This document shows, in pieces, positions 2,656-64,000 of a stretch of DNA of 64,000 nt (the first letter of the stretch is position 1; the number at the start of each line of letters is the position of its first letter). The DNA is taken from contig NC_068558.1 of the NCBI RefSeq assembly GCF_022201045.2, positions 1,178,001 to 1,242,000 on the forward strand, given 5' to 3'. A program made the translations under genes and the position numbers. Below the pieces are notes generated by a model. That model made no database searches. It was not told the DNA's origin and saw only the letters and a program-made list of their open reading frames with translations. Source of the stretch: Citrus sinensis (taxonomy: Eukaryota; Streptophyta; Magnoliopsida; Sapindales; Rutaceae).

Positions 2656-4015
2656 TAGTGCCATAAATCAAATGTTCTCCAATGCACCAAAGGATGGATA
2701 TGAGAAAGTGAATCATTCAACAAATGATTGTTATAAACAACATGATTCGAATGCTAATACATGATGATTAAAGCGCTCTAGGCGAATGATTGACGAATCA
2801 TTTAAACCTTACAGATTTGATGGTTCTAAAATAATCAAAACGCTGGACACGCCCACCTCACCAAGTGCTTGGCATCCACGTGGCGACCCCACACGACGAT
2901 AGCCACGTCAGCCACTAATGCTTGAACAGATATGTTTTAGTCGGGGTCAGCTTGTGATTATCATTCTCTGTCTTCAACAGAGACAAGAGATTAAGTGTTG
3001 ATTACAAAAATTATTTGTGATTCTATTCAATTCAAAATCATAATTCCTTATTTTCTGGGACTAGTTTTTTTTTTTCTAAATCGCGTGCACGATCCTTTGC
3101 CGGACTTAAAATTAATTTTTTCTTTTTTCTTTTTTTAAAAAAATGGGTTAGAGGCTTACACGTGCAATTTTCTATGAAGAAAAATCAGAGCGAAAAGATA
3201 CAAAAATATGATTAAATATTGATAAATGTCCAAATACGATGTCGTGAGACGTAAGAAGACACGGGTCGCGGTTTCCCATTAGAAAAAAAAAAGAAATTAA
3301 AAATTCCAATTGAACTCAGATACAACTAAGCTTCATTTGCTTTTACGGGGAGCAAAAAATCAAAATAAAATATGAAAGTAGATAAACAAGACGCCACTCG
3401 GCCATTCTTCTAATCCGCTTTCAACTAAAAATTAAGTAGAGGTTAGAATTTTTTTGGTTGATCTGTGGCAACTTCCACACATTTATTTTACAATTTCATT
3501 TTGTGCGGCGAAAGCTCTAATTGTCAAGGAAATGACCTCATACTTCCATTCCAAGAGTTGGGCCAAATGATTCTTCTTTTTGGGATATATAATGTGAATT
3601 TAAATTGTAAGTATTTGATTAAAATGTATAAATTAGAGCCACAAATTCTTCGTACAAATTTATTTGATGTAGTATTGTAATTAGATAATGATATCACATA
3701 CTTCCCATAATTTATTTTTATTATTATTTTATATTTTTATCCAATAAATACTATTGTGCCGCATTAGTTTATTAGTTTATATAAATAATTTTTGGTTCCA
3801 TTATGACTTTGAAATACTCTAATAGCTAAAGTTAAAAAATAATAATAATAAAAGCAAATGGAGTCTAAATTTGAAATTTGGAATATGGAAATATTTGAAG
3901 AAAACCTATAGATAAATAATTTATAAAATGTTGCATGATGATGAAAGGTAAGTATCCACCGACTACATGATATTTTTTACTTTATTGTTTTTCCACTTTT
4001 TCATTGACATTATAA
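1..4015. other. Intergenic, no gene recognised
   Basis: This AT-rich stretch has only short chance frames and no family I recognise. Two islands are richer in GC. About 1850-2030 has ACGTG cores (gacacgtgtac, gacgtggc). About 2830-2920 has a G-box-like cacgtggc followed by gccacgtcagc. These resemble ABA-response or G-box promoter elements and may belong to a gene beyond the left edge, but no adjacent coding start supports that. Confidence 0.5.
2609..2652. repeat. (TA)n microsatellite
   Basis: An uninterrupted alternating TA run of about 22 units, read directly from the sequence. Likely length-polymorphic. Confidence 0.95.
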
Positions 4016-4443
4016 GAGCATCTCCAAAAGACTTTTTAGAGTTTACTTTTCAAATATCAATTTGTTTACTGGTGTGGCAAATAAGTGGATGGAAAAATAC
4101 AATCTTCTCGATAAGACTCATTAAATAAGAATAAATTAATATTATTTTAATCAAATCTTTTCACTATTAAATTGAATTGCTGTTATGTTTTTGAAAGGAA
4201 ATATAAATAATAATTATTGCAGTCTTATCTTTTCAATAAATAATAATAAAATATTAATAGAAGAGGGAGAAACTCATTCGGTAATATTAAAGAGTGAGAA
4301 ACAAATCTTATTCGAAGAATCTAAATTAACGTGTCTTTTGAATGTTTAATATTGTAATGACTCTTTAAATAAAAGTCTTTAAATTAACGTGACTCTTTAA
4401 ATAAGAAGTAGAATTTTATTTAAAGAGTCTTTTGGAGATGTTC
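4016..4443. mobile_element. Tourist-like MITE, copy 1
   Basis: The 428-bp element begins GAGCATCTCCAAAAGAC and ends GTCTTTTGGAGATGTTC, so its ends are inverted repeats. It is flanked on both sides by TAA (4013-4015 and 4444-4446), the target duplication of PIF/Harbinger Tourist-like MITEs. The inside is AT-rich and has no coding capacity. A second, clearly related copy lies at 6240-6637. The direct TAA duplication and matching termini are seen in the sequence; the superfamily assignment is inferred from them. Confidence 0.85.
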
Positions 4444-5166: not shown

Positions 5167-5322
5167 GAGAAACAAGGGTCCGGTTACGGTGCAATTGTGG
5201 TACCGTGTCACAGTTACATCCAACCGTTGGATGCACTTGAATAGGTATGGTCTATTGACATTCAACGACTGGATGCAACTGTGGCACGGTACCACAGTTG
5301 CACCACATATTTTCCCGAGAAA
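5167..5322. repeat. Short fold-back (inverted-repeat) element
   Basis: Two arms of about 45 bp, at roughly 5188-5233 and 5262-5306, are inverted copies. Both carry a GTGGTACCGTG-type core followed by a cacagtt/gcatcca segment. The outer edges also match (gagaaacaag near 5167 and its complement near 5320). The opposed frames here are a by-product of the palindrome and not genes. It is probably a small MITE of unassigned family. Confidence 0.7.
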
Positions 5323-6228: not shown

Positions 6229-6239
6229 TTTGGGTATTA

Positions 6240-6637
6240 GAACATCTCCAAAAGGGTCTTTAAATTTCACTCTTCAAATTTCAATTTGCTTACTGATGTG
6301 GTAAATAAGTGTATAGAAAAATATAATTTCCTCCAAAAGACTCACCAAATAAGAATAAATTAATATTATTTTAATCAAATCTTTCCCACTATCAAATTGA
6401 ATTGTTATTATATTTTTCAAAAGAAACATAAATAATAATTATTACAGTCTTATCTTTTTAATAAATAATAATAAAATATTAATAGAAGAGGGAGAAACTC
6501 ACTCGGCAATATTGAAGAGTGAGAAACAAATCTTATTTAAAAAATTTAAATTAACGTGTCTTTTGAAGTGTTTAATATTGATATGGCTCTTTAAATAAGA
6601 AGTAAAATCTTATTTGAAAAGTCTTTTAGAGATTGTT
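6240..6637. mobile_element. Tourist-like MITE, copy 2
   Basis: A diverged full-length relative of the element at 4016-4443. It starts GAACATCTCCAAAAGGG and shares the internal block around 'aataagaataaattaatatt' and the 'gaagagggagaaactcac' block in the same order and orientation. The right end has drifted (TTTTAGAGATTGTT), and I cannot read a clean target duplication. No coding capacity. Confidence 0.8.
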
Positions 6638-33503: not shown

Positions 33504-36500
33504 ATGAATGTTTTGGACGCTTTATCTGGAAGTAATTCGGTTCGTGTACATCATTGCTGTCTCAACCCTTTTCTCTGTTGATATCCTTTCTTAGAAATAT
33601 CATTGACTTTGTGTTCATTCAGGGATCCAAATGCAAAAAAATTGATCTGGATGAGCAGAATGATGCTCTATATTCACCTCTGCGACGTGAGGAAATTGAT
33701 GCAAATGAAGACGATGATGATGGTGATCATGTGACTCCGTTTGATAAAGCTGGACTGCTCAGAAAGATATCTTTTTGGTGGCTGGACCCCTTGATGAAGA
33801 AAGGGAAAGATAAAATCCTTGAGGATATAGATGTACCACAGCTCCGTTTGGCTGATCGAGCTACGACTTGTTACTCTTTATTCATAGAAGAATTGAATGA
33901 TTGGAATCAGAAAAGACCATCAGCACACCCTTCAATTTTAAGGGCTCTAATTTCATGTCACTGGAAATCTATATTATTTTCCGGGTTCTTTGCGTTGATC
34001 AAGGTTATTAGCATCTCTGCCGGTCCATTGTTTCTGAAAGCTTTCATTTCTGCTGCTGAAGAGGAAATAATTTTCAAGTATGAGATTTATTCACTGGCTA
34101 TAAGCCTCTTTCTTGTGAAATGCGTAGAATCATTGGCTGGAAGACACTGGTTCTTTCAAAGTAGATTGACTGGGCTCAAAATAAGGTCTTCTCTTTGTGC
34201 AGCAATATCTAGCAAGCAACTAAGACTCTCAAATGCTGCTAAAATGATGCATACCTCAGGCGACATAGTGAATTATGTTACAGTTGATGCATATAGAATA
34301 GGTGAATTTCCATTCTGGTTTCATCAAATATGGTCGACTAGTCTTCAACTCTGCATTGCAGTAGTTGTCGTCTATTACTCTGTGGGATTGGCAACTATTG
34401 CAACGTTAATTGTCATGATATTGACTGTACTTGGAAATTCACCACTCGCTAAACTTCAACACAAGTATCAGGAAACGTTCATGACGGCACAAAACAAAAG
34501 GTTGAAGGCCATAACAGAGGTCCTGGTCAACATGAAAGTGCTGAAATTGTATGCCTGGGATTCATATTTCAAGAATGTTATCGAGAAGCTAAGGAGCGAG
34601 GAATATGGATGGCTCAAGGTCCTGCAGCTTCAAAAGGGATACTATATGGTTTTGTTTTGGTCATCTCCTATATTAATTGGAGCTGCTACATTGCTGACTT
34701 GCTATTTTTTGGGGATTCCTCTAAACCCTAGTAACGTTTTCACCTTCCTAGCAACCCTCAGAATTCTTCAGGAACCCATTAGATTACTTCCTGATGTTTT
34801 TGGGGCATTCATTGAGGCCAAGGTTTCGTTAGATCGAATTGCCAATTTTCTTGAGGCACCTGAGCTGCAGAATTCAGATATGCAACAAGTATGCAGTATA
34901 GCAGAATTTGAGCACTCAATTTTCATCAAGTCCGCTGATCTATCATGGGAAGCTGATCTTTTGAATCCTACTTTGAGAAACATCAATCTGGAGGTTAAAC
35001 CAGCTGAAAAAATTGCAATTTGTGGAGAGGTTGGTGCTGGGAAATCAACCCTTCTTGCCGCAATTCTTGGAGAGCTCCCAAGGCTACAAGGCATGGTAAG
35101 TTTTTGTTACTTTATCGAATGCACATAATATTTGACTCTTCAGGCTTATGAAGTTGTTTTGATCCTACATCATTGTGCAGATTAAAGTTTATGGGACGTT
35201 AGCATACGTTTCTCAAACAGCATGGATTCAAACAGGGACTATACAAGAAAATATTCTTTTTGGATGTGATATGGATCATAACAAATACCAGCAAGTGCTT
35301 GAAAACTGTTCATTATTAAAGGACCTCAAGATGCTTCCATTTGGGGATCTCACTCAGATAGGAGAACGAGGTGTTAATCTTAGTGGTGGGCAGAAGCAGC
35401 GTATTCAACTTGCCCGTGCATTATATCAAGATAGGGATATTTATCTTTTGGATGATCCATTCAGTGCTCTTGATGCAAAAACGGCAAAATTTCTATTTAC
35501 TGTAAGTTCATTTTATGAAAATTTTTGCTGCCCTATTCAGTGTAAAATCTAATCTGGATTCCGGACAGGAATATGTCATGGGAGCTCTTTCTAAGAAAAC
35601 GGTCTTGTTAGTCACCCACCAAGTTGATTTCCTTCCCGCATTTGATTCTATTTTGGTCAGTGAAAATTGCCTCAAGTTTATCCTGTTTCTAGAATGAATC
35701 TTGCATTACAAATTAACGGCTAAATTAATTGGTTACAGCTGATATCTGGACGGGAAATCATACAAGCTGCTACTTATGATCATTTGTTGGTTACCAGTCA
35801 AGAATTCCAGGGCCTTGTAAATGCACATAAAGAAACCATGGGTCCGGAAACATTTCAGGAACATGTTTCTTCGAAAGAAGATGAAAATGAAGTCAAGAAA
35901 GTAGAAGATGAGGGACACAATAATACATCTCCAGCGGATCAGTTGATAAAGAAAGAAGAAAGAGAAACAGGAGACACTGGTCTGAAACCTTACATAGATT
36001 ACATGAGTCACAAGAAGGGCTTCCTGTACTTCACTCTGTCAACTTTTGCCTACCTAATATTTTTGGTAGCTCAGATACTACAGAGTTTATGGATAGCCAC
36101 TTACATCCCGAGTACAAGCATTAGCAGATTGAAACTAGTCATAGTATACTCCGGGATTGGAATTGGCATGATGTTCCTTTTGCTCACAAGATCCTTCCTC
36201 GTAGTTTATCTAGGTCTTGAGGCATCAGAATCAATATTTTATAAACTGATGAGCTCTCTTTTCCGAGCACCGATGGCCTTTTATGACTCAACTCCTGTAG
36301 GAAGGATACTCAGTCGAGTAAGTAGTAAAATTTACCCGTTACAAACTATGCTTTAGGAATAATTTGGAAACTCAAATCATATTCCTTTGTTGCAGGTATC
36401 TTCTGATTTGAGCATTATTGACCTCGATCTGAGCATCAAATCTACTATCGCAGTTGGAACAACCATGACTGTGATATCGACCTTTGTGGTGCTGGGTGCT

Positions 36501-38593
36501 CTTACCTGGCATGTCTTGCTAGTCATAGTACCCATGATATATCTGATAATTGTCTTGCAGGTAACGCTAAACCCAAAAGAAAATAATAATAATAATAATA
36601 AGAAGAAGAAGAAGAAGAAGAATCATTGTTTATTGTGTGTTTATTTTGTCCTCCGAAGAAAGGATTCTTACAAAACCTGGTTACTTCAAAAATAGAATTA
36701 TTATTTTGCCACTGCAAAAGAGTTGATGCGTATCAATGGCACGAGGAGTTCTTTGCTTGCAAGCCATCTAGCTGAAACAGTAGCAGGAGTCATGACGATA
36801 AGAGCTTTCCAGAACGAGGAGCGGTTCTTTGCTAAGAACCTGGACCTTATTGATACGTATGCAAGTTCATTTTTCCATGGTTTTACGGCAAGAGAGTGGT
36901 TGATCCAACGTCTTGAAACCTTAAGTGCAATTGTTTTGGCCACCTCAGCTCTCTGTACAACTTTGCTTCATAAGGGACATAAAGGCGCCGGTTTGCACAC
37001 TCACATTGTCATGTTTCTCACAATTCTCCATCCCCTCTAATTTATTTAATCCTTTATAAATTATGTAAAAATAACTTGATTGATCATCTTTGAATAATAA
37101 TCAATCTCTTTTTTACAGGATATACTGGAATGGCATTGTCATTTGGCCTTTCATTGAACGACTTCCTTGTATATTCAGTCAACAATCAGTGCATTGTAGG
37201 AAATCTCATAGTTTCAGTAGAAAGGCTGAATCAGTACATGCGGATACCCAGTGAAGCGCCTGAATTGGTTAAAAAAAATAGCCCAGCACCGGATTGGCCC
37301 CCTACCGGTAAAGTGGAGATCTATGACCTGCAGGTACATGACAATTAATAATTCTGAGCCAATTACATAAATTAAAAAGTTCAATTCGTATTAATAACTA
37401 TTCATCAGCACCTCACACAATTGCTTTCGTTTCAAGCAGATAAGGTATCGGCCTAATGCTCCACTAGTTCTCCGGGGGATAACATGCACATTTGAAGGAG
37501 GGCACAAGATAGGAGTTGTTGGACGGACCGGTAGCGGCAAGACCACCCTAATCAGTGCATTGTTTCGTTTGGTAGAACCTACAGGGGGCAAGATCATCAT
37601 AGATGGCCTTGACATCACAACAATTGGGCTTTATGATCTCCGGTCAAATTTGGGAATCATTCCTCAGGATCCGACTCTTTTTAGTGGGTCTGTGCGGTAC
37701 AATCTAGACCCCTTATCTCAGTTCACAGACCAGGAAATATGGGAGGTAACTGTGTAACTTCCATTTTGTTACACCCTAACTTTTAAGTATTTGGTGAGGG
37801 TCTAAGTGTCTTTCCCCTTTGTGTCAACAATGGAAAAACTTTCGAGGAACAAAGAACCAAGAAACCAGCTAAAGATAAGAAAAATAATAATTGTTTGACT
37901 AATAAGGTCACAATACCCTCACAGGTGCTCGAGAAATGTCAACTTCGCGAAGTGATTCAAGAGAAAAAGGAGGGACTGGACTCATTAGGTGCGTGTCTGT
38001 TTGTTTGTGTGTTATAAGTGAAATGAAAGAATCATTAAATTGACAAGTCTAGTGTAGTGCAGTTGTGCAAGATGGGGCGAACTGGAGCATGGGACAACGA
38101 CAATTAATTGGGTTGGGAAGGGTTGTACTGAGGAGACGTCAGATATTAGTGCTTGATGAAGCAACTGCATCTATTGACAATGCAACGGACTCTATTCTCC
38201 AGAACACCATTAGAAGAGAATTTGCTAATTGCACTGTGATAACTGTGGCACACAGGATAGCAACTGTTATGGATTGCAATATGGTGCTATCTATGAGCGA
38301 TGGTGAGTTTTCATTCAATAAGTCGTGCTAAATTGCTAAATATTTAATTGTTAAGAATAATTTACCAGTCCCTTTCTTCTTTTCTTTTTCTTTTTCTTTT
38401 TCTTTTTTTCAAATAGACGTGTTTCAATGACTATAGAACTGAGATATGAAATGTCCATTTGTTTATCTGTTTTCATTTAACAGGAAAATTGGTAGAATAT
38501 GATGAGCCGAAGAAGCTATTACAGAGGCAGCATTCGCTATTTGCGCAGCTAGTCAAGGAATACTGGTCTCATGCAGAAAAACATCTGATATGA
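33504..38593 (+). CDS. ABC transporter C family (MRP, ABCC10-like), lacks TMD0
   Basis: An ATP-driven exporter of the plant ABCC subfamily. Exons after the first: 33623-35095, 35181-35501, 35569-35655, 35739-36317, 36396-36560, 36696-36990, 37119-37333, 37440-37745, 37925-37988, 38063-38302 and 38484-38593. All join in frame. NBD1 has GEVGAGKS (about 480), LSGGQKQR (about 570) and [11 protein letters not shown]. The linker carries [15 protein letters not shown]2 has GRTGSGKT (about 1085), [18 protein letters not shown] and a VAHR histidine. The body looks intact, but relatives are near 1480 aa and start with a five-helix TMD0 that is absent here. The 5' end is uncertain: I propose ATG 33504 with an 83-bp intron (33540-33622), giving about 1296 aa. 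The in-frame stop at 33533 blocks a longer frame. It may be a lateral truncation still expressed, or a pseudogene. Confidence 0.75.
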
Positions 38594-40833: not shown

Positions 40834-41400
40834 AAGCCCCACGGCTTCCAAAGGCAAAAAGTTGAAAATTAAAGCTATGCAGCGGCTGAAAAAACCTGTA
40901 AGAGTTCAGTTGATTAAGAAAGAAGAAAGAGAAACAGGAGACTCTGGACCGAAGCCTTATTAACAGTATTTAAGGCAGACGGCGGGGCTTTTATACTTCT
41001 CTTTAGGAATCGCATATCGTATCATGTTATTAATTGGGCAAGTGGTATAAAACTTATGGTTAGCTGCTGACATACAGAATCCTCGCCTAAGCACAGTGAA
41101 ATTGGCTGCAGTTTACTCCTTGATCGAATGCGCCACAGGATTCTTGTTGTTTCTGAGATCCACTAATGTAGTGTCGGATGTGACGCATCAGAATCACACT
41201 TTTCAACACTGCTGAGGTCTCCTTTCCTAGCACCAACGTCCTTTTGGCTTGTACAAAACTAGGCCTTCACTTAAAAATATCAGTATTCACGTTAAAGTTT
41301 CTTATAATGTCCATCCAATCCGTGTCAAAGAGGGTTCTTTATTTGGGCAGCTTGTGAAGGAGAACTGGTCCGTCTCACGCTTCAAATTCTGGTGTCAAGG
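40834..41400 (+). pseudogene. Broken ABCC transporter copy
   Basis: Decayed remains of a second ABCC gene. From about 40910 it encodes [18 protein letters not shown], a stop where the parent linker continues, then QYLRQTAGLLYFSLG, a second stop within IGQVV-NLWLAADI, and STVKLAAVYSLIECATGFLL. Together these are the linker and first helices of TMD2. Frame is lost near 41180. The C-terminal tail of the family (VKEGSLFGQLVKENWS) appears abruptly at about 41325-41380, so the rest of TMD2 and all of NBD2 are deleted. The residues differ clearly from the neighbouring full gene, so this is a separate paralogue and not a recent copy. About 40834-40905 may be poorly conserved linker. Confidence 0.85.
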
Positions 41401-46371: not shown

Positions 46372-46978
46372 GAAAAAATATCTACCGTCCATCCGTTTTT
46401 TTAATTTTTTTAAAAATACACAATTTTTTTTTTTTTGCTGAAATCCACCTAAAGTTACATTTTGTTTTACTTTTTCACTTCCGTTTGGAATCCGTTAAGA
46501 AAACTAACGGAAACTTAAAAAAATGACCATTTTACCCCAAAAATGAAAATTACAATTTCACTCTAAAATATACCAAAAATAATCAAATTTAATGATGAAT
46601 ATCATTATTGGTACGTTAATGAAGTACAAAAAAATCTTAACTACTAAAGATCATAACTCAATGAATAATAAAACTCTACTTACCTTAAATTCAATTGATG
46701 GTTTGCAAGATTGGGCTATTTTTAATACTACTGTTATAATTTAACATTTTAATTACATACATATTTAAAAAAAAAACCATGCATTTGATGGTTGTAGAAT
46801 TAATTTCTTTATTGACCAATAGTCATTTTTTTTAAGTTTTCGTTAATTTTCTTAATGGATTCCAAACGAAAGTGGAAAAGTAAAACAAAATGTAACTTTA
46901 GGTGAATTCCAACTAAAAAAAAGAATTGTGTATTTTTAAAAAAATTAAAAAAAACAGGTGGACGGTGGATATTTTTCC
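46372..46978. mobile_element. Mutator-like MITE with long inverted termini
   Basis: About 150 bp at each end are inverted copies: GAAAAAATATCTACCGTCC on the left and the complement of GGACGGTGGATATTTTTCC on the right. They continue through a TAAAGTTACATTTTGTTTTAC block. Perfect 9-bp duplications TATTTATTT flank it (46363-46371, 46979-46987). Long inverted repeats and a 9-bp duplication are the marks of Mutator-like elements. The centre is non-coding. It ends about 140 bp downstream of the LRB-like stop codon. Confidence 0.9.
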
Positions 46979-49580: not shown

Positions 49581-50923
49581 GCCCAAATTTACAAAACCCT
49601 AGGCCCTTTTTTGAAATACAAAATCCCAAATGTGAGATCTGATTTTTGTGGTTCCCTGTTTACTTTATTTTTTTTAAAAAAAGAAAGGTTAAAAATGAGA
49701 GAGAGAGAGAGAATTTGCTCCCATTCCTATAACATTATTAATGAATCGAATTAGGAAAGTATACTTCAATAAGTAATTGCCAAATTTACATTTTAGTCAT
49801 CGAGAAACTAATGATGTGCCATGTAATCTGTTATACACTAACTAAATAATAATTTCGTATAATTCTTAAATAAATAAATTACAGTATCATATTGTTTGAG
49901 ATAAAATTTTAAGATATTTAGTCTCTTTAAATTATTTGTTATCATAATAATTAATAAAAGTGATAATTTTTTTTTAATAATTTAAACTCCAATCACACAA
50001 AGAAATTTAGTTATTAATTTTTTTAATAATTTGTACTTACCAAGCAAAGTTAAGGGCCATTTTGAAATTACATTTAAGAGACTCAAAACTTATTTTAAAA
50101 AATTAAAAGTTAATTTTAATATTTGAAAAATTTCGTACAAATCACTTCATCGTACACAAAGTTTTAAAAAACAAAGTATGAATAGCTTTTCAAAATCTGA
50201 TTTTGAAAATTAGTTTTTTATTTTATGTAATTTTATATATATCCTCACATATATTATAAAAATCCAAAACTATCCTTGTTCAATTAAAAAGTAAAATCAT
50301 TAAAAATTAAAGAGATCATGATTATTGACAATTATATTAAATAACAAAATAAAATTTTAATAAAATAAAAATATTTATTTTTAGTTGTCAAGTATTATAT
50401 CTACACAATAAAAAAATATTATTTATATATTTTACAAATGTTTAAATAAATTTTGTTTAACATTATATTTATTTTCATTATTTATATACTTACAATAGAT
50501 TTACTAGATACAACGACTATTTTTAGAACCCACTACACTTTTTAAAATAAATTTTACTAAATATTTAACTAATTCTTTTCATAATCGATTATTCTTATAG
50601 CACTACTAATTATAGTTATTTGAAAGTTATCTTATTACTAAACTAACCCTAACATATATAATTTGTTTGTACTTCTTATCTTATCTTGGAATTTTGAGTG
50701 TGTGTGGGAGGGGGGGGGGGGAGGGGATTCCTTCTCTAATGAGGGTATCCTCACTTTGTTAAAGTGGATATGCACACTAATTTTTTTTTAAAAAAACCAT
50801 ATTTTAATACATTAAAAACTATATTTTTCTTATCTGTTAGTGTATTGAAATATGTGTTTTTTGTTTGTTAATGACATTCTCACTTTGTTATTATTGTTGT
50901 TGTTATTGTTGTTATTATTATTA
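49581..50923. other. LRB upstream region and AT-rich intergenic sequence
   Basis: The first 150 bases are probably the LRB leader and core promoter, with a GA run (about 49697-49711). The rest is extremely AT-rich, with a G-rich patch near 50708-50724. No gene seen. Confidence 0.45.
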
Positions 50924-51482
50924 GGGATATAATCATTTTCCCACCAAAGGTATTCTGACACATCATGTCAGTACCACGGTTTGGTAAAACCATCAGTTTA
51001 CCACCAAACGTTTAAACTGTTAGTATTTTCCCACCATTCCGTTAAAACTCAGTTAATATGTAACAGAAAATTCATAAAAAGGTCAATTTTATCCCTGGAG
51101 CGTAAAAGATGATTTTGCCCTTTAAGAAGAAAGAACAAAAAATGATGATTTAATTACAAAAATCATAAAATATTAATTACATTATTTTTTAAAAGGTCAA
51201 TTTTATAAAATTCATAAAGGGTAATTTTTGTCCTTTAAGAAGGAAGAACAACAAATTATGATTTAATTACAAAATTCATAAAAGGTTAATTACATGGTCT
51301 TTTACACTCCAGGGGTAAAATTGACATTTTATAAATTTTCCGTTACATATTAACTGGGTTTTAACGGAATGGTGAGAAAATGCTAACAATTTAAACGTTT
51401 GGTGGTAAATTGATGGTTTTATCAAACCGTGGTACTGACATGATATGTCAGAATATCTTTGGTGGAAAAATGATAATATCCC
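50924..51482. mobile_element. Mutator-like MITE, second family
   Basis: Nearly 200 bp at each end are inverted copies, from GGGATATAATCATTTTCCCA on the left to its complement at the right edge. They include the TGTCAGTACCACGGTTTG and CCGTTAAAACTCAGTTAATA stretches. Nine-base TTATTATTA duplications flank it (50915-50923, 51483-51491), though both lie in ATT repeats, so the duplication could be coincidental. The interior has repeated blocks (ccctttaagaagaaagaac and tcctttaagaaggaagaac) and no coding frame. Confidence 0.85.

Positions 51483-51521
<39 letters not shown>
51483..51521. repeat. (TTA)n microsatellite
   Basis: About thirteen TTA units directly at the right edge of the Mutator-like MITE. 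Confidence 0.92.
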
Positions 51522-58700: not shown

Positions 58701-60160
58701 TTTTTTTATTAAAAGATAATTCTTTCAAATTCTCAGGAAAAATACTATGTAGTTATTATATATAGTAACACCTTCTCTAATTAGGACGGTTTTTTTTTAT
58801 AAAAATTTTGACAATTGTTGTTACAGTATTTTTGTATTTGTCTTTAGATTAAGTTGAAGTAAAGTGTTGCTGTTAACAAAGCTTGTCTTAGCTTTTGATG
58901 CCTGGTGAAAGGCTGAATGCACCATGTTGCGCGTGCTCTCCTTTCAATAAATTTTACAAAATTGCTTCATTCCCACGTATCGTACAAGTAAAGACGAGAA
59001 GATTCTATCCATAGTTCCAGTAAATAAAAATCAGAAGACATATTTTTATTTTTTTTTATTTTTTATCGGAAACAAAAATCTTTATCCATTCTTCTTTGCA
59101 ATCTTAATTATATGTAGAAACCATATTAGTGGACAAAAACACCAATTTTTTTTTTTTGGGGGGTGGAGGGGTTGGGGACTGTAATCACCACCTATCGCCG
59201 CATATTTAGATAGAGGTGGAGAATTTATGAGGTTTCAGAAGCACTGGTTTCGGAGAATTTATAACTTAATTCCATTCCATTTCTCTAGTTTTTGGTCAAT
59301 AAGAAATGGAATGGAATTAAGTTCCCCTTTGTTTATTTCATATTAAATATATAATATATTTATAATTATGTAGCTATTATGTGTGTGCAACTTAAAAATA
59401 ATTTTTTAAATGTATTCTAAACTTGTGAAACGGTAAAGCATGCAGTAATTAATATACCTTCCCCCCAACCGAAAAAAAAAAAAAAAAAGAGGTTCATTCC
59501 GTATTTGGTCACTAGTCAATTCTTGATTTTGGGCTTTTATCTTTATGTTTTCTAGTTGCCAAAAACTGTATGTCTTCCCTTTTTCTATAATTAAGCAAAC
59601 AGGTTGAAATTTTACACGATTTGTACCATTAGATATGCGAATGAAAGACACATACATATAAGATAAGACATATCGCTTTCATATATTAACTATCGAACAA
59701 GAAATCCAATCTGAAATATCTACATCATGCGTAGCTTGAGCCTAAAGTTAGCACATGATCTAGCTGCTTAGAGCAAATATTAGTAAATTATCTTAGTAGC
59801 CAAAGCTGCACGATTCTTATTCAAAACCACCTTGCAATCTTATCAAATATAATAATAATCTTTATCTTGATCGTCATCTCAAGACTTGGATTGTTCTTCA
59901 GTATAAACAGATCAGCTTTCTTCATCTGATTGAAGATAATACGTATGATCTAGATCAAGTTTAATTTTATATTGTACTTATTATAAATTTTGTTTGATCA
60001 TATTAAAGTATTAAATTATCGAGTTATTTTTGTTGTGTCAACTACTCGTTGTGCTAATAGTTGACACTTCTTTGTTTTATTTTTACATTCGTCCTCTTAA
60101 AATAGTTTGGTTGATGCTATTTGTGCTCGTGATCACCCGAATTCAAATAAGAAAAAGGGG
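55721..60160. other. Gene-poor AT-rich region
   Basis: About 4.4 kb without a recognisable gene. It includes a purine-rich block at 58330-58450 and a poly(T)-G stretch near 59150-59170. Short frames at 56446-56691, 57835-58053 and 58306-58587 show no family features. It may hold distant regulatory DNA for MIR319, but nothing specific is visible. Confidence 0.4.
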
Positions 60161-60508
60161 CAAAGGATTGGTTTAGCGGTTAGTTTTTCATCCTATCCAA
60201 ACTATTTTAATAAATAAATAAGTCTACTTTTACTACATAAAAATATAAGTCTAATAACTTAATTCCTACACTCTTACCATTGAAACAACCAAGCACTCAA
60301 GGTTCGAGTCACCTTGAGTGTATATGTTAGAGTTCCAACAATACTTGAGACTCAATTATCCTCTTAGTGAAATTATCACGTATCATGTGAAGATAGAAAT
60401 TCAGGCTTTCCTATAGTAAAATTATCAAGGATAGTATTGATAGATTTCTTATTATAAATATCCATAAAATTCTGATGGTACTATATCAGTGTATCAAAAA
60501 AAAAAAAA
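60161..60508 (+). mobile_element. Possible SINE of a second family
   Basis: A-box-like TGGTTTAGCGG at 60169-60179, an excellent B-box GGTTCGAGTCACC at 60301-60313, and a terminal A run (60497-60512). The A-to-B spacing of 130 bases is far too long, so an insertion between the boxes or two merged elements is likely. Confidence 0.45.
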
Positions 60509-60512
60509 AAAT

Positions 60513-61891
60513 TCTCTGCACTCTTACCCGATATGCTTTATGATAATTAACTTAATTAACTTGAAGGCGGATGTTGTCATACTAAATAAGTTAAGCATAT
60601 AGAGATAAGATGAAAGTTGTATAATAATAATACAGAATGGAAAGCCAAAAGTTCATAGCAAAAAGTTCAAATGTTAAGCACTATTTTGTTTAGCATTAGT
60701 TTTAATATAATCATTATAGAGAGAGTATTACGTTTGGTATGCAAGATTGGATTAGAATAATTGTCAGACTATGTTAAATTATATTTAAATAATATTAAAT
60801 AGCATTCAAGTTGATATTTAAATATAATATTAATTATTCACCAAATTTATAATAATAATTAAAATAAATTTAAAAAGTAATTAATAAGAAAATTAAATTT
60901 ATTGTGAATAAGTTATTGGGTAGTTATAATATAATAAACAAATAAAAAGAAATAAAATAATTTCAATATTTAATTAAAATTTATCAAATATTTAAAAATA
61001 TTATATAAAATCAATTAATTAGTGGTATTATTAATTTTCATGATATTTTTAATATTATATTCGTGAGTATTAAATGGTTAATTTTATTGGTAAATTATTA
61101 TATATACAAGTAATGAAAATTTAACTCAAGAACTAGCAGAAGTAAAAGTGCCAATTTTATTAGGTCATAGATAATAAATAAAAAAATAATCAATGTACTG
61201 ATATTCGGTATAAATAAAAAAAATAACGATATAAATGAAAATCTCATAAATGGACCACTTTTTTTTTTAATTTTATTGCAACTAAACTCATGTATAAATT
61301 AAAATAACTAATCCAATGATTTTAGGATTAAATTCAAATTCAGTCCCCCCCTGTCTAGTCCAATCCAACTAAACTTACCAAATATGAGATAGATATTTAA
61401 GCTCAAAATTAGTTTAATCTCATATTTAATCCTAGAATCTAAGCATGGCCTAAGTGGATATATATAGGTATTTTTCCTAATCTCTCCAAGGTTTTACTAG
61501 ATTTTTACTACCTTTTTAAAAATTCCTTTCTAACTTTAATAAACATGTGAAAACATACACGTACGTATTTATAGAAATATCAGATAACTTATAACCAATA
61601 TTAATTATGTCTTTCAAGTCTAGAAATTATACTCACCGGGGCATGGATGCAAGTACAGTTCATGCTTATTAGTTACTACATTATAGAATTAATTTATATA
61701 TATTTATATAGGGGCATATGCAAAGGAATTGATGGACTCTCCACAATGGAAGGGATTGATGGGAGGCTTCTTACAAATAAAAGCTAGCAAAGGGAAAAGA
61801 AAGAATATGAATAACTCTTTTATTTATTTAATTATGATCACAATAAATATTTAAATAATTGTTTGTTGTCTAATCTTTGCCTTTCTTTCAG
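60513..61891. other. AT-rich region upstream of MIR319
   Basis: Very AT-rich without coding frames. The last few hundred bases before 61892 are the likely MIR319 promoter. Confidence 0.4.
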
Positions 61892-61901
61892 CTATATAAA
61901 G
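61892..61901 (+). promoter_or_regulatory. Candidate TATA box of the MIR319 gene
   Basis: CTATATAAAG, preceded by pyrimidine-rich sequence (cctttctttca), lies about 315 bases before the hairpin. Plant MIRNA genes are Pol II genes with TATA boxes at such distances. A start near 61925 is predicted, not shown. Confidence 0.55.
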
Positions 61902-62217
61902 CCATTCCTTTGCACTTAGATCCACGAGATGCTTAGTAACCTCGCCAGTGATAGTACCAGCCAATAAAAAGCTCTTTCTTCTCCATCTTCGCCATTGACA
62001 TTAGTTTTATACCCCTTTGTGAGAGATCTCTTCTTCTCTTTCCTTTAGGGTTTTTTTCAGCAAGGCCCATTTTCGTGATCTGTACTTGTGAAATTAGCAC
62101 AGATCTGCATATCATTAGGCAAGGATATACGTGGATAAGGTTCAAGAAGTTTTTCTCATTGTATTGTATGTCTTTTTTTCAATTTTTTTCAAAGTTTGTT
62201 GATTTTGATTAAGCTGG

Positions 62218-62238
62218 GAGCTTTCTTCGGTCCACTTA
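62218..62238 (+). ncRNA. miR319 passenger (star) strand
   Basis: GAGCTTTCTTCGGTCCACTT pairs with the mature strand with the usual few mismatches. Conserved in this position in MIR319 genes; the exact ends are inferred. Confidence 0.75.
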
Positions 62239-62322
62239 TGGGTGGCAATAGGATTTAATTAGCTGCTGACTCATTCATCCAAATACTGAGTAAAGGGTCG
62301 AAATGGATACCCAGTAAATGAG

Positions 62323-62341
62323 TGAATGATGCGGGAGACAA
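62323..62341 (+). ncRNA. Possible second small RNA (miR319.2-like)
   Basis: TGAATGATGCGGGAGACAA lies on the 3' arm, loop-proximal to the mature strand. The same block is conserved in Arabidopsis MIR319 precursors, where a second small RNA has been reported. Accumulation here is unproven. Confidence 0.6.
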
Positions 62342-62364
62342 ATTGAATCTTAAGCTTCCTGTGC

Positions 62365-62384
62365 TTGGACTGAAGGGAGCTCCC
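62365..62384 (+). ncRNA. miR319: Mature miR319
   Basis: TTGGACTGAAGGGAGCTCCC matches the conserved plant miR319 core exactly. The next base is A, so a 21-nt form would end in CCCA; the 5' U and length fit AGO1 loading. Confidence 0.95.
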
Positions 62385-62398
62385 ATTGCTCGCTAATC

Positions 62399-64000
62399 TT
62401 ATCCATATTATAGTTTAATTATATCTTTATCTGTTTAATATTCTTTATTTTTAAATTACCTAGGCACTCTATAAATATATATGCTAGCTACTGAATAATT
62501 ATGCAATTGTCATACTGAATTAGTAAAATACAGCTTTTACTTATCCACTGAATTTGTTTCATTCTTAATATATTTCGAGATCATAGCTCAACCCTTCCTG
62601 TGGTATTATGTGAAAGATTATGCATGTTCTCAAAGTGCTATTGATTTTTTAAATTTGTTTATTTGAATAAATTGTATGTATATGTATTATTTTATGGTCT
62701 TTTCTATTAATTAAATTGTTGAGCGGTCAAGATATTCTGGATAATTAATCATTATTTTATGTTCGATTTTTGGTTTGATTTTTATGGATGGAATTGATTG
62801 CTAACCATTGTTTCGCTTTCTTGAGTGATTATTTGTGGGCAGCCTCAATCTTTGAAAATTAAGCCAGGGCTTTCGCCTTTAGGGTTTTTGTTATGTTTGT
62901 CAAGCTGCTGCTGCTGCTGCTGCCGTTATTGTTAAAAAAGCTAGGCCTCCGCAGGGAGTTTAATTTACGCTCTACGACAACAACCTCCTTGGGTCTAGCT
63001 CTCTTGCTTGCAACAAGTTCCTAGGCCTAGACAGACATGTCTCTTCATCAGTCTCGGGGTTACAATTACCGATATATCCTCGCCCCATCGGTGCTTCATA
63101 TATATGTCTTTCTCTTCCCATCTATCTTTTTCCTTTTAAATTTGAAGATCGAGTACTGACTGTATTATTTATTACTTGCTTGGCAGTTGGCAACAATTAG
63201 GCTGCTGTGTTTTGCTCTGGTGCGTTTGCATGTGTGAATGAAAATATGAAAATGATCATCCACTGCCAAGTCTAGAAATAGATACAATATTAAAGTTGTA
63301 TCTGTTCATTACTGCGCCTGTCTAATTCTTGCGTTTGTTTGACGAGTCTGATTGCATGTACAGAGCCTTCAGCCAGAATCCATATATTGTACGTAACACA
63401 CGGTTTACACGAGTTTTTGAGTTGCAAAGCGGGCAGATTCGTGCTAAATCTCTTCTGTTGACTTCGCTTGTTATTAATAAGATTATCCCACAATTAGTAC
63501 CGGTGTCTTTCTGTACACTTCGATATGTCACATCACATTTTATATTTGAATGTTTACCTACCAAGTGAATTTACAAATAACTACATTTAGAATTAAATAA
63601 AGGACGATGCTTACTCTAAATAGTTTTAAAGTTGAGTATTAATTAGAGTGTAAATTACAGACACATACGCATAGTAATAAATAATAAAAAAAATATATTA
63701 TAATTTTGATTGTCTTAAAGTGAATCTAATATCATCGGACCCTTAAATAAAACAATTATCTTCCACTGACAATTTTTTAAGAGAATTCATGTTGGTGATC
63801 GAAAGAAAGTTTCTTTGAATTTTAGTTTCTTTTAATGTAATAGGGTCAATGCTGATGGATGGGCGTGACAAGCTACTTAATTTCACTCTTGCTAAAATTG
63901 AATGAAGAATATGTGATATGATCACATTAATTTTTTTAATGAAAATATTATTCCCGTTGACTCTCCATGAAACCCTAGCCTGACATATAGTTTTTAAGCT
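62399..64000. other. MIR319 downstream region and window end
   Basis: The primary transcript may extend here. A (GCT)n run lies at 62901-62920, followed by a more complex stretch to about 63120. Short frames at 63290-63568 are opposed on both strands and show no family. No further gene seen. Confidence 0.4.

Follow-up and report, generated by a model that had tools for sequence, protein, structure and literature searches.

A very probably functional MIR319 gene in a gene-poor stretch of the Citrus sinensis genome

A MIR159/319-type hairpin lies beyond the protein genes of the window

The window, the 64-kb stretch of DNA that we analyzed (C3:1178001-1242000 of Citrus sinensis), begins with protein genes. 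Among 36 longer frames picked from its first 49.6 kb, Pfam searches identified several clear ones: a ubiquitin-conjugating enzyme, a leucine-rich repeat (LRR) kinase, an ABC transporter, a 6-phosphogluconate dehydrogenase, and a BTB/BACK protein. The original prediction described the last 14 kb as gene poor, and this proved correct for frames of at least 45 amino acids with Pfam domains: the 80 frames of this length overlapping 49.7 to 64.0 kb gave no convincing Pfam match (best E value, 0.0019; six families at an E value of ≤0.05, with one member each). Over the 19 kb that follow the window, a frame of more than 150 codons first appears at C3:1247247-1248803 (519 codons).

Within this stretch, at 62206 to 62396 on the plus strand, we found a MIR319 precursor hairpin of the bi-duplex, "type 1" MIR159/319 kind, identified by its match to the Rfam model RF00638, by its fold z score, and by covariation. 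The RF00638 match covers the full model (positions 1 to 196) with 147.1 bits and an E value of 1.2e-32 (cutoff, 74) and was the sole Rfam match at gathering thresholds in the 64-kb window. The original prediction had placed a MIR319 gene at 62207 to 62398, which is right to within 2 nt. The antisense strand of the hairpin scored 73.6 bits, just below the cutoff of 74, as expected for a near-palindromic hairpin. RF03483, the Rfam model named MIR319 (92 positions; cutoff, 54), gave no match at an E value of ≤1 in 61500 to 63500; this model is short and is not the definition of the long MIR319 genes. ARAGORN found no tRNAs in the window.

A stable hairpin was expected from positions 62190 to 62410, and we found that this segment folds at −87.1 kcal/mol, compared with a mean of −54.2 (standard deviation, 4.2) for 200 shuffled sequences, none of which was as low (z = −7.86). 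The stem is single and runs without a branch from the pair 62212:62390 up to the terminal loop. At −83.5 kcal/mol, the hairpin had the lowest energy among 2554 segments of 191 nt, taken in 50-nt steps on both strands of the 64 kb. The runner-up, at −83.1, is a repetitive element at about 5.15 kb, only 0.4 kcal/mol behind. Thus, low energy alone would be no proof.

The mature sequence is that of miR319

The mature miR319, UUGGACUGAAGGGAGCUCCC, occupies 62365 to 62384 on the plus strand (20 nt; the 21-nt form ends at 62385). We located it by a 19-mer search, and it equals ptr-miR319 of trifoliate orange. The exact core and the start at 62365 are as originally predicted. With up to three mismatches allowed, the core TTGGACTGAAGGGAGCTCC occurs once in the 64-kb window (mean over 100 shuffles, 0), and it had no occurrence in one viral and one genome contig collection, neither of plants. 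As printed, ptr-miR319 and grape miR319g show 0 mismatches to the mature sequence, where the criterion of PMC3118147 allows 3. From the pairing table, miR319* lies at 62218 to 62237 on the plus strand, its ends placed by assuming 2-nt 3' overhangs. In the fold, an uninterrupted helix of 19 bp, including G-U wobbles, joins the two arms between the pairs 62216:62384 and 62234:62366.

The Rfam model that matches here bears the name MIR159, and miR319 and miR159 are mostly the same sequence; the printed data of PMC6470687 include a Citrus MYB mRNA with a cleavage site to which either microRNA could have directed the cut. The locus could on these grounds be a MIR159 gene acting on GAMYB rather than TCP mRNAs. 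We consider this very unlikely. The mature sequence reads UUGGACUG, like miR319, and not UUUGGAUUG. A separate locus, at C3:42281462, carries the exact miR159 sequence UUUGGAUUGAAGGGAGCUCUA, the same as that of grape MIR159C. Finally, RF00638 is a model for long hairpins of both kinds, and its three top-scoring loci in the genome all have the miR319 core.

The middle and loop-proximal duplexes are preserved

The original prediction also held that the 5' arm, the base, and a second duplex near the loop are preserved, and we found miR319*, a middle duplex, and a loop-proximal duplex all kept, each on the plus strand. The middle duplex pairs 62239 to 62259 on the 5' arm with 62344 to 62364 on the 3' arm, which abuts miR319; printed Ammopiptanthus small RNAs match these arms at 19 of 21 and 20 of 21 positions, respectively. 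The loop-proximal duplex consists of 62260 to 62282 (ACR5) and 62321 to 62343 (ACR3), and the fold places the terminal loop region at 62283 to 62320 between them. ACR5 is identical to the printed cumin cci-miRN14-5p (23/23). ACR3 is identical to the printed longan dlo-miR9 (23/23), for which the source gives 1144 in a column that we take as the read count. Its first 21 nt (62321 to 62341) equal a printed Cucurbita miR319 small RNA (21/21) and match a grape read labeled Vvi-miR319c at 20 of 21 positions.

The hairpins MiR_278 and MiR_1267 of the legume Ammopiptanthus (PMC5048172) resemble the locus in giving several small RNAs per hairpin. Those printed for the middle and loop-proximal duplexes that we compared differ from ours at one or two positions, with one mismatch each for the loop-proximal ones. 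The miR* arm in this other plant family differs from ours, the printed miR319 5p read having 4 mismatches of 23 over 62215 to 62237. Taken together, the printed small RNAs of other plants cover the 3' arm of the hairpin at 0 to 1 mismatches. We also found that the 3' arm segments 62321 to 62343, 62344 to 62364, and 62365 to 62384 lie end to end with no gap or overlap, as expected if dicing proceeds from the loop to the base.

Li et al. (PMC3118147) classify a gene as type 1 when its stem is unbranched, two further conserved sequences are present, and miR* and miR lie more than 60 nt apart; 231 of the 277 genes in their table are of this type (277 by our addition of the rows). The locus shows each of these features, including ACR5/ACR3 and a spacing of 127 nt between 62237 and 62365, above the 60-nt limit. 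In melon, such cuts have been mapped by 5' rapid amplification of cDNA ends (5'-RACE), with frequencies printed for sites 1, 3, and 4 (PMC6195573).

Conservation among paralogs is confined to the hairpin

We searched the genome (299.7 Mb in 11 contigs) for MIR159/319 loci and obtained 21 matches; 10 loci account for two each, one per strand, and the remaining match is a weak locus on C1. The genome therefore has at least 11 such loci, a lower bound because only 34 candidates were scored. The core TTGGACTGAAGGGAGCTCC occurs in the window locus and at C7:21401072, C4:2424381, C2:24851653, and C3:9817627. C3:48418407 and C3:49762873 carry a TTGGAGTG variant, C3:48410240 and C3:49754750 carry a TTTGGATTG...AGCACC variant, and C1:4827514 matches RF03483 with 87 bits. 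As a separate observation, a pair of MIR159-like hairpins at C3:48.410-48.419 Mb appears again at 49.755-49.763 Mb, 1.34 Mb apart, with an identical 193-nt hairpin for one member; either the segment was duplicated or the assembly contains it twice.

When 62000 to 62600 was compared with the genome, it matched three places: itself, the C7 locus (75% identical), and the C4 locus (71%). The similarity spans 62218 to 62383 and 62216 to 62383, that is, from miR* to miR almost exactly, with the flanks excluded. Both paralogs belong to the same family and share the identical 19-nt core and the two-duplex layout, but in both the core is followed by CU rather than CC/CA at the 3' end. We also considered that the hairpin might be an inverted-repeat transposon and rejected this because it has only these three genomic matches, unlike two other inverted repeats that we tested.

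We then aligned the window locus with the C7, C4, and C2 loci (4 of the 11, leaving aside C3:9817627 and the miR159-like and C1 loci). With the structure taken from the window row, and thus somewhat in its favor, 83.9% of the cells were paired, and 17 of 70 pairs had changed on both sides; none of 500 shuffles was as high. Sliding the partner by 1 to 3 columns lowered pairing to 38 to 51%. Helices 2 to 4 near the loop had 37.5 to 62.5% of their cells paired, versus 87.3% in the main stem.

These data bear on whether the locus could be a decaying, silent MIR319 copy whose hairpin is kept by descent only. One copy could be lost, given that the 19-nt core occurs in four other loci of the genome. 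We nevertheless consider a silent copy extremely unlikely, since the arms show compensatory changes, the hairpin alone is conserved between distant paralogs, small RNAs printed for longan and Cucurbita have exactly the sequence of the loop-proximal 3' arm, and the counterpart in trifoliate orange was described in a study that screened expressed sequence tags.

The locus corresponds to a published trifoliate-orange microRNA

The ptr-miR319 of Poncirus trifoliata (PMC2881865) has the same 20-mer as the locus, and its precursor can be compared over the 26 nt that are printed, all of which match 62362 to 62387 (26/26). We found that the C2 paralog encodes the same 20-mer, so the 20-mer alone cannot name the locus. 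The 26-nt stretch can: it is exact at the window locus alone in the genome, and with up to three mismatches allowed it has one further place, the C7 paralog, with 2 mismatches. According to the printed results, the trifoliate-orange work (PMC2881865) screened expressed sequence tags for precursors, identified by miR-RACE a 20-nt miR319 with exactly the start that corresponds to 62365, and placed the cleavage of Pt-TCP4 opposite nucleotide 10 in every one of 15 clones. Grape MIR319G (PMC2831844) agrees with the locus over all 21 nt of the mature form, including the final CCCA, a likeness that concerns the mature sequence only. The citrus counterpart has been in print since 2010, and the locus is a standard conserved gene of a kind that is not new.

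Three TCP genes carry candidate miR319 sites

We next looked at miR319-complementary sites in the 21 TCP-domain loci that we found in the genome. Three had such sites, with penalties of 3.5 (L025), 4.0 (L033), and 5.0 (L032), and the remaining 18 had penalties of 6.5 or worse. The three loci are at C2:28.473, C1:16.558, and C2:7.190 Mb. All three sites are on the sense strand and fall within the open reading frame encoding the TCP domain. Against 20 shuffled versions of the microRNA, with one strand of each locus used as stored, none of the 21 loci scored as well as 4.5; the shuffles say nothing for L032, whose 5.0 is beyond that line. A stricter first target pattern gave one match, in a TCP gene. 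Both Pt-TCP4 RACE primers printed in PMC2881865 (27 and 25 nt) match the C. sinensis genome with 0 mismatches, and they match L032 exactly. Of the two Pt-NAC1 primers in the same paper, the one that we tried (25 nt) also matches the genome with 0 mismatches. Independently, a study of Citrus sinensis TCP genes (PMC9258177) lists such sites in three of 20 genes, all three of the CIN type.

The sequence, the fold, the comparison with paralogs, the complementary sites in TCP genes of this genome, and the published trifoliate-orange data all support the original prediction of a very probably functional gene, and we hold it highly likely that the locus works as a MIR319 gene in a Citrus-type tree. 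Its probable role is to silence TCP genes that shape leaves. In the MIR319 family, it is established that miR319 directs cleavage of CIN-type TCP mRNAs and that these TCPs control leaf growth. This standard route accounts for everything that we saw, and from it we infer transcription, processing, and cleavage in C. sinensis. RNA polymerase II would produce a long noncoding RNA. DCL1 and its partners would then make four cuts from the loop to the base, as the pairing register and the small RNAs of other species suggest. The loop-proximal duplex (62260-62282/62321-62343) would be released first, then the middle duplex, and then miR319*/miR319. The 20- to 21-nt miR319 starting at 62365 would load into Argonaute and direct the cleavage of CIN-type TCP mRNAs.

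TATA-like words occur upstream of the hairpin, as is common in AT-rich DNA. Twelve ATG-started frames of 4 to 46 codons begin in 61601 to 62215, and no test singled one out as a miPEP-like peptide. A scan of 60001 to 62700 found TCP-binding-like words at 61252 and 62229; the word at 62229 falls within the miR* arm and carries no weight as evidence.

No general view is changed by these results. They identify a conserved regulatory gene that a protein-based annotation would miss and place a studied trifoliate-orange microRNA in a whole genome, beside its paralogs and likely TCP targets.

miR4414 and the loop-proximal duplex

RF03440, the MIR4414 model, matches 62253 to 62350 of the window with 29.2 bits, below its cutoff of 100. 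At the C2 paralog (L016, C2:24851653-24851846, minus strand), a MIR4414 match is nested in the MIR159/319 hairpin with 83.8 bits and an E value of 4.2e-17 (cutoff, 100). The loop-proximal duplex of this paralog matches at 21 of 21 positions what we take to be the 5p sequence of mtr-miR4414a. We found this 5p sequence in eight papers, one of them on Medicago, among the text available to our literature search, which did not return the 3p sequence that we had assumed. Loop-proximal small RNAs of the Ammopiptanthus miR319 hairpins are labeled mtr-miR4414b (PMC5048172), and papers on tree peony and pomegranate print the same label on similar small RNAs, with the hairpin not displayed there. From these sequences, miR4414 appears to be the second duplex in a MIR319 gene. 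Searching titles and abstract openings, we found no published statement equating miR4414 with the loop-proximal MIR319 duplex; the observation would tidy microRNA family naming.

A further step is speculative, and we think it rather less probable than its opposite: the loop-proximal duplex could be a second working microRNA of the window gene. The miR4414 families would then be loop-proximal MIR319 duplexes and not independent genes, and at some loci, such as that on C2, miR4414 may have replaced miR319 as the main product.

Repeats elsewhere in the window

The inverted repeat at 50914 to 51492 (166-nt arms, 91% complementary, 247 nt apart) makes up part of the gene-poor gap. It has many copies genome-wide, the near-full-length ones being 87 to 93% identical, and is therefore probably a mobile element. 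A second inverted repeat lies at 46374 to 46976 (150-nt arms, 85% complementary, 303 nt apart). The hairpin at about 5175 to 5320 (z = −9.5), the runner-up in folding energy, is a repetitive miniature element found, among 40 candidates scored, at no fewer than 40 genomic places including itself, the others being 81 to 89% identical. Direct repeats at 4011 to 4439 and 6235 to 6633, about 2.2 kb apart and with blocks 82 to 91% identical, flank the hairpin near 5.2 kb and are possibly a small LTR-like element. Finally, a 97-nt stretch at 40906 to 41002 is 75% identical to 35939 to 36035 of the ABC transporter gene (33536 to 38328), which it follows by about 5 kb, and may be a degraded copy of that part.
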